Of a DNA stretch of 64,000 nt, positions 16,771-18,985 are shown piece after piece (the stretch's first letter is position 1; each line of letters opens with the position of its first letter). The notes below the pieces were generated by a model that ran no database searches, was not told where the DNA came from, and worked only from the letters and a program-made list of their open reading frames with translations. The DNA comes from Ancylobacter moscoviensis (GTDB lineage: Bacteria > Pseudomonadota > Alphaproteobacteria > Rhizobiales > Xanthobacteraceae). Both the position numbers and the translations under genes were made by a program. The DNA lies in NCBI RefSeq assembly GCF_007559435.1, contig NZ_VMBP01000006.1, forward strand, positions 248,001-312,000. The letters are read 5' to 3'.

Positions 16771-18389
16771 TACGGCTCGTCGTCTATCTGCTCGTCCTTT
16801 CCCTCATCGCCTTCGGCGTCGCCTGGCTGGCGGACCGTCCCGGCTCGGTGACGATCGACTGGCAGGGCTGGCAGATCGAGACCAGCATCCTCGTCGCGGC
16901 GAGCGCGCTGCTGGCGCTGCTGGCGGCAACCATCCTGATCTGGACGGCGCTGCGCATGATCGTCCGCTCGCCCGACCTGATCGCCTTTTCCTGGCGCGCC
17001 CGGCGCCGCAACCGGGGCTGGACGGCGGTGTCGCGCGGCCTCGTGGCGGTCGGCTCCGGCGACGCGGTGGGCGCCCGCCGGGCGGCCAACGACGCCGAGC
17101 GGCTGCTCGGCCGCGAGCCGCTGACCCAGCTTCTCGCCGCGCAGGCGGCGCAGCTTTCCGGCGATGCGGTGGGCGCGGAAGCGGCCTTCCGCTCGATGAC
17201 CGAGGCGCCCGGCACGCGCCTGCTGGGCCTGCGCGGCCTGCATGTGGAGGCGCGCCGGCGCGGCGATGCCGGCGCCGCCCTGCTGGCGGCGGAGGAAGCC
17301 GCGCGCCACGAGCCCGGCCTTGCCTGGGCGGCGGACGCGGTGATCGAGGCGCGCTGCCTCAATGGCGATTTCGCCGGGGCGCTGGCCATGCTGGAGCGCG
17401 AGGCCGCGCATGGCGGGCTCGACCGGGCGGCGCATCGCCGCCGGCGGGCGGTGCTGCTCGCCGCGCAGGCGCAGGCGGTGGAACTTTCCGACCCTGTGAC
17501 CGCACGCGAGAAGGCGGTGGAGGCGACCCGCCTCGCGCCGACGCTGGTGCCGGCCGCCGAGGTCGCCGGCCGGCTGCTCGGCGCGGCGGGCGACGCGCGC
17601 AAGGCCGCCAAGATCATCGAGGCGGCCTATGCCGCCACCCCGCATCCCGACCTTGCCGACGCCTATCTGCACCTGCGGCCCGGCGATGCCTCGCGCGAGC
17701 GGCTGAAGCGCATCCGCACCCTGACCGCGCGCATGCCGGGCCACCCGGAAAGCGCCATGGCGCTCGCCCGCGCGGCGATCGACGCGCAGGATTTCGACGT
17801 GGCGCGCACGGCGCTGGCGCCGCTGCTGGGCGACCCGACGCAGCGTGCCTGCCTGCTGATGGCGGAGCTGGAAGCCGCCGAGAACGGTGATGTGGGCAAG
17901 GCGCGCGAATGGACCGCCCGCGCGGTGCGGGCGCAGCGCGACCCGGCCTGGGTGGCGGACGGCGTGGTCGCCGACCGCTGGGCGCCGGTCTCGCCGGTGA
18001 CGGGCCGTCTCGACGCCTTCGAATGGAAGCTGCCGCCCGGCGTCGCGACGACGCCGATGCTGGAGAACGAGGCCGAGCGGGTGAAGGCGGCGATCGCCGC
18101 CGCCATCGAGAGCCGCCCGGCGGTGGAGCCGGCCTCCGGGCCGGTGGTCGACCTGACCGAGCCGGAGCATGCCCCGAGCCTCGCGCCGGAAGCCGAGAAG
18201 GGCGAGCCCCCCAAGGCCGATCTTCCGAAGGCTGACTTCGTGAAGCCGGAGCCGGTGCGGCCGAGGCCCGCGACGGCGGCCATCGTGACGCCGGTGGTGG
18301 CGATGCCGCATCTGCCGGACGATCCCGGCCCCGAGGATGCCTATCCGGACGAGACCATCGGCCGCTCGCGCCCGCCCTTCGGCATCTGA
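16767..18389 (+). CDS. HemY N-terminal-domain/TPR inner membrane protein
   Basis: 540 residues. Two closely spaced N-terminal transmembrane helices (about 1-20 and 40-65) form the HemY_N domain, followed by TPR-like helical repeats and a Pro/Glu/Lys-rich tail (about 460-540). Despite the name, this family is not protoporphyrinogen oxidase; its role in heme synthesis is inferred from gene order and it may scaffold late pathway steps. The GTG start overlaps the mitofilin stop by four bases, so the two are translationally coupled, which suggests a shared envelope role. Confidence 0.87.
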   Translation: MIRLVVYLLVLSLIAFGVAWLADRPGSVTIDWQGWQIETSILVAASALLALLAATILIWTALRMIVRSPDLIAFSWRARRRNRGWTAVSRGLVAVGSGDAVGARRAANDAERLLGREPLTQLLAAQAAQLSGDAVGAEAAFRSMTEAPGTRLLGLRGLHVEARRRGDAGAALLAAEEAARHEPGLAWAADAVIEARCLNGDFAGALAMLEREAAHGGLDRAAHRRRRAVLLAAQAQAVELSDPVTAREKAVEATRLAPTLVPAAEVAGRLLGAAGDARKAAKIIEAAYAATPHPDLADAYLHLRPGDASRERLKRIRTLTARMPGHPESAMALARAAIDAQDFDVARTALAPLLGDPTQRACLLMAELEAAENGDVGKAREWTARAVRAQRDPAWVADGVVADRWAPVSPVTGRLDAFEWKLPPGVATTPMLENEAERVKAAIAAAIESRPAVEPASGPVVDLTEPEHAPSLAPEAEKGEPPKADLPKADFVKPEPVRPRPATAAIVTPVVAMPHLPDDPGPEDAYPDETIGRSRPPFGI

Positions 18390-18430
18390 AGGGCGACCGC
18401 GCGCGGCGTTGAGGCGCGCGGCGGCGGGCG

Positions 18431-18611
18431 CAAAAAAAAAGCGCGCCGTGACGGCGCGCTGCTTCCAGGTTCGGGTCCCCGCCAGAGGCCGGCCGCTCGT
18501 CAGGCGGCCGGAGGGAAAGAACACGGTCGGAGTACATCCGTCCTGACCGTGTTCCGTCCGGCGAGGCGCTGACGAAGCGCCAACATACCGGAAGCCCTGT
18601 TCTGGCTGGGT
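18431..18611 (-). ncRNA. Structured small RNA with own promoter and terminator; 6S RNA candidate
   Basis: Predicted transcript of about 180 bases from near 18611 to the T-run at 18432. By-eye folding gives one long rod: closing stem GGCUUCC/GGAAGC (18596-18590 with 18466-18461), then UCGUCAG/CUGACGA (18575-18569 with 18503-18497), CCGGA/UCCGG (18561-18557 with 18512-18508) and a perfect 10-bp apical stem GAACACGGUC/GACCGUGUUC (18554-18545 with 18528-18519). Between the closing and next stem is a large asymmetric internal loop whose left strand includes AUGUUGGCGC. Rod, central bubble and length fit 6S RNA, which sequesters sigma-70 RNA polymerase. 6S is my best guess; the transcription unit itself is more certain than the identity. 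Confidence 0.6.
18432..18460 (-). terminator. Intrinsic terminator of the structured small RNA
   Basis: Reading leftward: a GC stem GCGCGCC/GGCGCGC with loop GUCAC (18459-18441), then nine uninterrupted T residues. The orientation is clearly minus strand; on the plus strand the run is poly-A, so it does not terminate the HemY operon. Confidence 0.85.
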
Positions 18612-18617
18612 TGAAGC

Positions 18618-18646
18618 ATATCTAGGCAGCCGGAACGGCATTTCAA
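18618..18646 (-). promoter_or_regulatory. Candidate sigma-70-type promoter of the structured small RNA
   Basis: Reading leftward: -35 TTGAAA (18646-18641), exactly 17 bases, -10 AGATAT (18623-18618). No open reading frame starts downstream before the terminator, supporting a non-coding transcript. Confidence 0.65.
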
Positions 18647-18674
18647 GGGGCGGGTGCGGATTTTGCCGCCGCGA

Positions 18675-18755
18675 CGTCATTCCGGGCGCGCGGTGGCATC
18701 GTGTTCACGGCCGGGGTGGAAGACGTGGATGGCCGGGACGAACCCGGCCATGACG
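18675..18755. repeat. Two-armed dispersed palindromic repeat, copy 2
   Basis: Left arm begins GTCATTCCGGGCGCGCGG (18676); right arm GTGGATGGCCGGG-acga-ACCCGGCCATGACGG spans about 18724-18754. Same family as the copies at 11338, 37191, 45030, 48533 and 55645. Confidence 0.7.
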
Positions 18756-18820
18756 GCGGTGCCGTTCGGATGGCGATTTCGGGACGGTCGGCGGATCCGG
18801 GATGACGGAGGCGGCCCTTC

Positions 18821-18966
18821 GACCTCTCCCTGTGGGGGAGAGGTCGCTGCGCAGCGGCGGGAGAGGGGCGCATGCTGCGGAGCGGCGAAGGCTCCTCATG
18901 GGGCGACGCAGGCTTCTCACGAGGCGTCGAAGGCCCCACACCCCCAGCCCTTTCCCCGATGGGGAG
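18821..18966. repeat. CTCTCCC/GGGAGAG hairpin repeat cluster
   Basis: Two related hairpins: GACCTCTCCC/GGGAGAGGTC (18821-18845) and a CCCCGATGGGG core followed by AGAGGGAGCGAGG near 18955. A similar TCTCCCC-gt-GGGGAGA hairpin occurs at 58527-58542, so this is a second dispersed repeat family. Confidence 0.5.
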
Positions 18967-18985
18967 AGGGAGCGAGGTCGTTCCC

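Follow-up and report, generated by a model that had tools for sequence, protein, structure and literature searches.

Among described RNAs, ar35 (RF02346), which we take to be the family of SmrB35/SmelB053 of Sinorhizobium meliloti with SmrB35, reportedly described in 2007, as its founder, shares a hairpin module with the RNA analyzed here. According to the available portions of the published reports, SmrB35 is likewise a separate small RNA gene of 139 nt, with a predicted sigma-70 promoter and a terminator of its own, and is moderately stimulated by luteolin (PMC2780559). Three copies in the genome, with RpoD and RpoH promoters, are listed for it (PMC7143759), a second copy lies 3 kb away (PMC2573895), and it was undetected in Hfq coimmunoprecipitates (PMC2848018). 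In those portions, none of the four papers states a target, a function, or a link to cold-shock-protein (csp) genes for SmrB35. The two RNAs differ in build: the 144 positions of the ar35 model form successive hairpins, without the four-way junction or kissing loops described below, and ar35 was not listed among the matches of our RNA at E ≤ 10 (gathering cutoff, 45 bits).

Two other systems invite comparison. 6S RNA (RF00013), which the first-pass annotation had proposed for this locus, is similar in size and is likewise a free-standing gene. The cspA leader, or cspA thermoregulator (RF01766), is comparable in that copies of our RNA in Kaistia and in genome G022 sit in csp 5′ leaders; it differs in that the copy studied here is free-standing and RF01766 was not listed for it at E ≤ 10. 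A likeness to the E. coli "cold box" is possible. A full-text literature search with the motif string returned no paper, and further searches listed no paper describing the RNA; in the portions of two genome-wide noncoding RNA surveys that were available, six taxon names were absent from the main text (PMC11109978, PMC8632094).

A predicted RNA gene between cobT and hemY

The window is a 64,000-nucleotide stretch of the Ancylobacter moscoviensis genome (here G000), in which the predicted RNA corresponds to C10:266432-266612. Its boundaries in window coordinates are set by a promoter and a terminator:

18642 to 18647, minus strand: −35 element CTTGAA (CTTGAA, CTTGCA, or CTTGCG in 29 of 30 orthologs)
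18619 to 18624, minus strand: −10 element TAGATA (commonest form in relatives, CATATA)
about 18612 to 18432, minus strand: whole predicted RNA, about 180 nt, bounded by promoter and terminator, with a conservation plateau over the first ~135 nt
18432 to 18460, minus strand: intrinsic terminator, a 9-bp hairpin (18460-18440) followed by nine T residues

The minus-strand promoter with a 17-base spacer that the first-pass annotation had read here is present as CTTGAA-N17-TAGATA at 18647-18619, as are the hairpin and the run of nine T residues. A pattern scan found a gap of exactly 17 nt in 29 of 30 orthologs; in the 30th (L031) an insertion moves the −35 element beyond the scanned stretch, and the element is legible in the sequence. 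A promoter scan of the locus found none, its model being of the E. coli type. From the promoter spacing we infer a 5′ end near 18612. Conservation across the 30 orthologs is 0.79 to 0.89 in the core and 0.61 to 0.67 in the terminator part; outside the RNA it is 0.35 to 0.59 upstream of the promoter and 0.43 to 0.48 downstream.

In all 30 Ancylobacter loci the neighbors, identified by their proteins, are cobT upstream and a convergent hemY downstream. The setting beside heme and cobalamin genes to which the first-pass annotation drew attention is thus genuine in Ancylobacter, but copies in other genera sit elsewhere; a crude clustering of the longest open reading frames (ORFs) at 36 loci gave no conserved neighbor gene across genera beyond Kaistia-like records. 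The statement that the region holds "no usable open frame" is correct insofar as there is no conserved coding sequence, although frames do cross the RNA: one of 307 amino acids (aa) starting at an ATG in the P3 loop (see below) and an ORF of 946 aa. Because the frame from this ATG ranges from 12 to 539 codons among the 30 orthologs, it is not a conserved coding sequence, and we rejected a peptide encoded from it. As far as sequence can tell, a self-contained structured RNA gene and, failing 6S, an undescribed regulatory RNA remain apt descriptions.

Elsewhere in the window, G/C-rich inverted segments (GGGGGAGAGGTCG...) between the promoter and cobT (18800-18980) resemble dispersed intergenic repeats by eye. 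The sole Rfam match above gathering in the whole window is an "ffh" small RNA (RF01793; 46851-46902, plus strand; 62.2 bits), with none on the RNA studied here, and no tRNA was called in the window.

Occurrence in Ancylobacter and other soil bacteria

A DNA search of 61 genomes (our own, 29 others of Ancylobacter, and 31 from outside the genus) matched the RNA in 30/30 Ancylobacter genomes, whose loci all hold AGGACGGATGTACTCCG; among the 31 outside genomes, short matches to the terminator side in G030 and G050 were all that appeared. A second, tandem copy in four of the 30 genomes (L022 in G008, L027 in G004, L029 in G024, and L030 in G027) brings the number of copies to 34. The tandem copies lie 256 to 285 nt apart, with complementary segments resembling CCCGACAGGG/CCCTGTCGGG between them; the second has, by eye, no promoter of its own and was also found by the model.

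Scanning GTDB contigs by pattern gave 59 stretches, a count that includes several contigs of one genome for some Microvirga species. They come from Ancylobacter, Kaistia, Microvirga, Prosthecomicrobium, and Chthonobacter, together with three records that resemble Kaistia but are named otherwise (L048, L057, and L071) and two coincidences within coding sequence (L049 and L093). Model R1, built on Ancylobacter alone, scored 36 RNAs (35 stretches plus L043) at 31.8 to 74.1 bits and the two coincidences, which share only the motif, at 28.6 bits. Across the family outside Ancylobacter, R1 matched 0 of 266 genomes, which is weak evidence of absence because only 11 candidates per genome were scored, under strict filters. 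Within the order, with 8 candidates scored per genome, model R2 matched 23 of 397 genomes at E ≤ 0.01, and these belong to 9 of 141 genera; one R2 match, G536, was dropped because it lacks the tip. The exact 15-mer GGACGGATGTACTCC occurs at 26 sites in 22 of the 397 order genomes, against 0 sites for its reversed control, and in 3 of 327 genomes of a class sample, namely our own and two in which the site is not part of such an RNA. All 14 Kaistia genomes were matched. By these searches, the predicted RNA is present in several groups of soil bacteria, including scattered other genera beyond Kaistia and Microvirga.

An extra 3′ domain, GCCCAGG-CCCGUAG...CCGGAG-CCUGGGC, precedes the U run in type-1 Kaistia RNAs and in Microvirga, Prosthecomicrobium, and Chthonobacter (35 distinct sequences by pattern, 28 of them aligned; L075 departs from it); Ancylobacter RNAs lack it. 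The expected length in Kaistia and Microvirga is roughly 230 nt. L049, L093, and L145 were discarded since their tip sequence lies within a coding frame, presumably that of polyphosphate kinase judging by motif, and L147 since its sequence lacks the element. In the three coding frames the 17-mer sits on a perfect, longer stem, probably forced by the protein sequence. Microvirga copies are found on plasmids (L100 and the records NZ_CP069357.1, NZ_CP069358.1, and NZ_CP141049.1), and one Microvirga copy matches three plasmid records, all from that genus; PLSDB shows no annotated feature beneath the RNA, one record having two annotated features in total. The window sequence itself matched no plasmid. 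A phage origin was dismissed, with 0 viral contigs containing the 17-mer and 0 phage matches.

Covariation supports a cloverleaf rather than a rod

Folded as a single sequence, the RNA reaches −94.3 kcal/mol (z = −4.89), which none of 200 shuffles equaled. For this one sequence the rod-like fold of the first-pass annotation is thermodynamically the best, yet in an alignment of the 34 copies from 30 Ancylobacter genomes (A1) its covariation was no better than that of shuffled columns: 4 of 30 pairs and 6 cells were double-changed, and 474 and 433 of 500 shuffles, respectively, scored as high. This test left out P3, which rod and cloverleaf have in common. The cloverleaf without P3 and without the contact between P2 and P4 had double changes at 13 of 29 pairs and in 50 cells, values reached by 0 of 500 shuffles. 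With both included, 93.1% of cells were paired and 19 of 48 pairs were double-changed, a level that none of 500 shuffles reached; in slid controls, no more than 44.3% of cells were paired. The comparison supports a four-way-junction cloverleaf with stems P1 to P4, and not a rod, as the probable fold:

18601 to 18609, minus strand: P1 closing stem, 5′ side; 86.3% of cells paired, one pair changing from C-G to U-A in 8 sequences
18478 to 18486, minus strand: P1 closing stem, 3′ side, pairing with 18601-18609
18555 to 18594, minus strand: P2 arm; outer stem 18594-18588/18561-18555, inner stem 18581-18577/18569-18565
18570 to 18576, minus strand: P2 apical loop UUCGUCA, whose UCGUCA could kiss the P4 loop
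18519 to 18554, minus strand: P3 arm; 18554-18545 with 18528-18519, bulged A at 18544, 18543-18541 with 18531-18529
18532 to 18540, minus strand: P3 loop CGGAUGUAC, 9 nt, an ar35/csp-type hairpin loop, the only copy in the window
18489 to 18511, minus strand: P4 arm CCGGCCGC...GCGGCCGG; 99.6% of cells paired, double changes at 4 of 8 pairs
18497 to 18503, minus strand: P4 apical loop CUGACGA, whose UGACGA could kiss the P2 loop

Double changes also occur at 4 of 5 pairs of the P2 inner stem (100% of cells paired), 3 of 7 pairs of the P2 outer stem (85.7%), and 6 of 13 pairs of P3. The perfect 10-bp apical stem noted earlier (GAACACGGTC/GACCGTGTTC) is real and belongs to P3. A family-wide alignment of 44 rows (A2) had double changes at 36 of 42 pairs, a figure that leans toward the model to which the rows were fitted; its rows from outside Ancylobacter were picked by the 17-mer. 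Four arms appeared in the single-sequence folds of five of six core homologs (Microvirga, Chthonobacter, Kaistia, G391, and L003); the sixth, L089, gave no four-arm fold. Relatives thus do show the compensatory changes to which the first-pass annotation had looked for support, and these favor the cloverleaf instead of the rod. The central bubble of 6S type is therefore unsupported as well, the rod pairs covarying no better than shuffled columns.

Loops of P2 and P4 can kiss

Within Ancylobacter 97.1% of the cells of this loop contact are paired, with no double changes; compensatory changes appear between lineages. The P2/P4 loops read UCGUCA/UGACGA in Ancylobacter, CGUCA/UGACG in Microvirga, GCAUCA/UGAUGC in Chthonobacter, UUGUC/GACAA in two Kaistia second copies, and ACGUCA(C)/(G)UGACGU in Prosthecomicrobium, L110, and G391. 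Matched loops beat permuted ones across seven lineages: 12 of 5,040 permutations did equally well when Watson-Crick pairs were counted, and 18 of 5,040 when G-U was allowed; the lineages were hand-chosen, the 22 loop pairs were read by hand, and lineages of GNRA type were left out. Hand-read loops were used because automatic extraction from single folds (88 rows) closed many loops too tightly. This comparison shows that the P2 and P4 loops would be able to kiss, with compensatory changes between lineages. Some pairs are weak: 3 bp in L051 and L074, 4 bp in L023 and L137, and 2 bp in L100 (5 with G-U). Type-1 Kaistia RNAs have no kiss; P2 is capped by a GNRA tetraloop in 11 of 14 distinct ones, the others being L057, L120, and L124. 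By analogy only, the arrangement recalls tRNA, also a cloverleaf in which the arms on either side of the third touch each other, but our RNA has longer arms and Watson-Crick kissing loops.

The P3 tip recurs at csp genes and in ar35

From the stem outward, P3 consists of a stem, usually a bulged A, three base pairs, and the CGGAUGUAC loop, which is identical in 34 of 34 Ancylobacter copies. Outside the genus its constancy is partly due to selection, because most such copies were found via the loop. The loop is also kept in G391 and G512, which the model detected; there the three pairs beneath it are GCA/UGC and not GGA/UCC, a compensatory swap of G-C to C-G that leaves the loop intact. Kaistia second copies and the L131-L134 group lack the bulged A or have it altered.

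We found CGGATGTAC at 11 sites in our own genome, one of them the RNA itself. Among the ten others, the two located 23 and 65 nt past csp stop codons have the three base pairs, the bulged A, and at least six outer pairs, a form that the remaining eight lack. The chance of two or more such csp-flank sites is about 1e-7 (Poisson; six csp genes and 70-nt windows, the width having been set post hoc). In a csp census of five genomes (35 domain matches at 30 loci, 28 examined and 27 parsed, with two second domains skipped), 6 of the 27 parsed genes carry the hairpin, four downstream and two as leaders, and 21 do not. By genome the counts are 2/6 in G000, 2/6 in G022, 2/6 in G531, 0/4 in G562, and 0/5 in G391; the last two carry the RNA, yet none of their parsed csp genes has the hairpin.

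Full-length copies also lie ahead of csp genes. Of the six Kaistia second copies, five (L141-L144 and L161) are followed by a csp gene on the same strand, and L187, a divergent second copy of the Ancylobacter genome G022, likewise precedes a csp gene on its strand. Where measured, the tip is about 185 to 190 nt from the csp start codon, and PF00313 was confirmed for both leader-linked cold-shock-domain proteins. In the sixth Kaistia second copy (L160:1063 region, G578), no csp frame lies between the RNA and the terminator-like hairpin downstream of it. The G578 locus suggests that a csp gene was lost there while its leader survived, and that free RNA copies can arise from csp leaders. The copy in the window has no csp neighbor. 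We regard a csp linkage of the hairpin, as predicted from these contexts, as supported.

The core hairpin (CGGAUGUAC loop, three base pairs, and bulged A) is found both at 18519-18554 and in the ar35 consensus GACCaCGGAUGUACuGGC. The csp 3′ flank of G022 contains an ar35 match of 64.8 bits (L166:1675-1794; cutoff, 45), and matches below the cutoff lie in csp 3′ flanks of G531 (L170:1665-1798, 44.6 bits) and of our own genome (L186:1673-1788, 34.7 bits); no ar35 match was listed for the other own-genome flank, L182. The matches in L166, L170, and L186 run into a terminator-like hairpin after the csp gene. In these three genomes the ar35-type RNA may be a product of the csp 3′ untranslated region (UTR). 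Loop, bulge, and context lead us to infer a common origin for the tips in ar35, the csp flanks, and our RNA; since our RNA is unmatched by ar35 at E ≤ 10, the shared hairpin could be convergent.

Possible functions

A near-invariant loop on a freely varying stem, occurring in two builds of free RNA and on both sides of csp genes, has the look of a site recognized by a single protein. The RNA may well act in trans by presenting the csp-linked hairpin and titrating its reader protein, so as to tune csp expression, a proposal we favor tentatively. The CGGAUGUAC hairpin on csp mRNAs would be recognized by an RNA-binding protein, for which a cold-shock-domain protein is the simplest candidate, and the free RNA would compete for that protein in trans. 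The kiss between P2 and P4 would lock two arms and leave P3 exposed, making the cloverleaf a stable decoy scaffold that holds the hairpin clear. The csp products are the best candidates for the reader because cold-shock proteins bind single-stranded RNA and can autoregulate. Against titration, these proteins are known as loose single-strand binders and are not known to read one fixed hairpin. The proposed decoy action on an RNA-binding protein resembles that of CsrB/RsmZ-type titrating RNAs, which carry many GGA loops versus one P3-type hairpin per unit here; unlike in those systems, no CsrA was found in our own genome (PF02599, 0 matches; control positive in 3 of 14).

The main rival to protein titration is base pairing by the loop. 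The RNA would then be a trans-acting small RNA whose P3 loop seeds on mRNAs containing GUACAUCCG, and the csp-linked copies would be relatives in the same circuit. Nine unpaired, near-invariant bases would make a good seed, and one site, L153, is a 12-nt perfect complement; it lies inside an open frame that we take, by motif, to be trpE. There is also a precedent in S. meliloti, where GspR represses the cold-shock gene cspA5 by base pairing, according to the available part of the report (PMC5928217). However, the complement GTACATCCG occurs at only 11 sites in our own genome against 31 for a reversed control, which has equal base content but not equal dinucleotide content. Of ten such sites examined, most fall within open frames and none is convincingly at a start codon, and csp genes bear the same hairpin rather than its complement. 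We consider base pairing unlikely.

An RNA that responds to temperature seems to us quite unlikely. The element would then be fundamentally a thermosensor of csp leaders, with the free copy as a relic or a cold-stabilized RNA lacking a specific partner. Full-length elements upstream of csp genes in Kaistia and G022 speak for such an origin. The cspA 5′ UTR of A. tumefaciens has, in the portion of the report available, been described as a thermosensor candidate (PMC3738593). The window copy does not occupy a csp 5′ leader, lying as it does between cobT and convergent hemY, and at E ≤ 5 RF01766 was not among the matches listed for the L141 leader; where csp loci do match that model, every score is below the 78-bit cutoff and the match extends into coding sequence. 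A constant loop on stems that change freely suggests recognition rather than melting.

The kiss might instead join molecules, making the RNA a homo-oligomer that displays many P3 hairpins. Kissing covariation fits contacts within or between molecules alike, tandem double copies exist in 4 of 30 Ancylobacter genomes, and several P4 loops of the kissless type-1 Kaistia group look palindromic by eye. The palindromes may be due to chance, and both loops are part of one junction and able to meet in one molecule; we judge oligomerization very unlikely.

6S RNA and other described families

6S identity is extremely improbable: size, promoter, and terminator are all 6S-like, but RF00013 is absent from the 13 Rfam matches at E ≤ 10 for 18300-18800, the rod is unsupported by covariation, and the genome has a genuine 6S locus elsewhere. 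That locus, G000:C10:105454-105610, is the single RF00013 match at E ≤ 0.001 (88.5 bits; cutoff, 46.4) and lies about 161 kb from our RNA, which differs from 6S RNA in being a probable cloverleaf and in matching no model. The first-pass annotation had itself named a missing Rfam match and a better 6S locus as grounds for giving up the identity, and both were found.

No Rfam family reached gathering on the RNA. The best low-scoring match, ncS025 (26.8 bits; cutoff, 46), spans 18432-18511, including the terminator, and was rejected. Among relatives, Rfam searches of nine loci returned only tRNAs away from the RNA and those of twelve loci returned nothing; the low-score lists (E ≤ 10 or 5) for our RNA and its relatives held low scores only. 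The RNA is thus a predicted stand-alone noncoding RNA of a family that no Rfam model matches.

Three further candidates were rejected. The GGAUGU of the RNA presumably resembles the CsrA consensus, but a CsrA-titrating RNA was discarded since CsrA was not found in our own genome. A Y RNA (YrlA) was discarded on the same kind of grounds (Ro/TROVE, PF05731, 0 matches in our own genome; control positive in 1 of 14). A Shine-Dalgarno mimic would be destroyed in G391 and G512 by their GCA/UGC stem.

Implications

A wider reading, which we consider doubtful, is that CGGAUGUAC hairpins tag an unrecognized, csp-centered posttranscriptional regulon in Hyphomicrobiales. The hairpin would be carried 5′ or 3′ on some csp mRNAs, in ar35-type chains, and on a kissing scaffold that is possibly oligomeric; the free copies would descend from csp leaders that lost their gene and would now be dedicated titrators of cold-shock-domain proteins.

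The RNA offers a compact model for four-way junctions with kissing loops, and its natural compensatory variants and GNRA replacements suit structural work. The csp linkage offers a testable partner for SmrB35/ar35 and for a second, differently built RNA. If the titration proposal is true, these bacteria would have a protein-titrating circuit for cold-shock proteins, with a logic like that of Csr/CsrB, in a genome without a detected CsrA.
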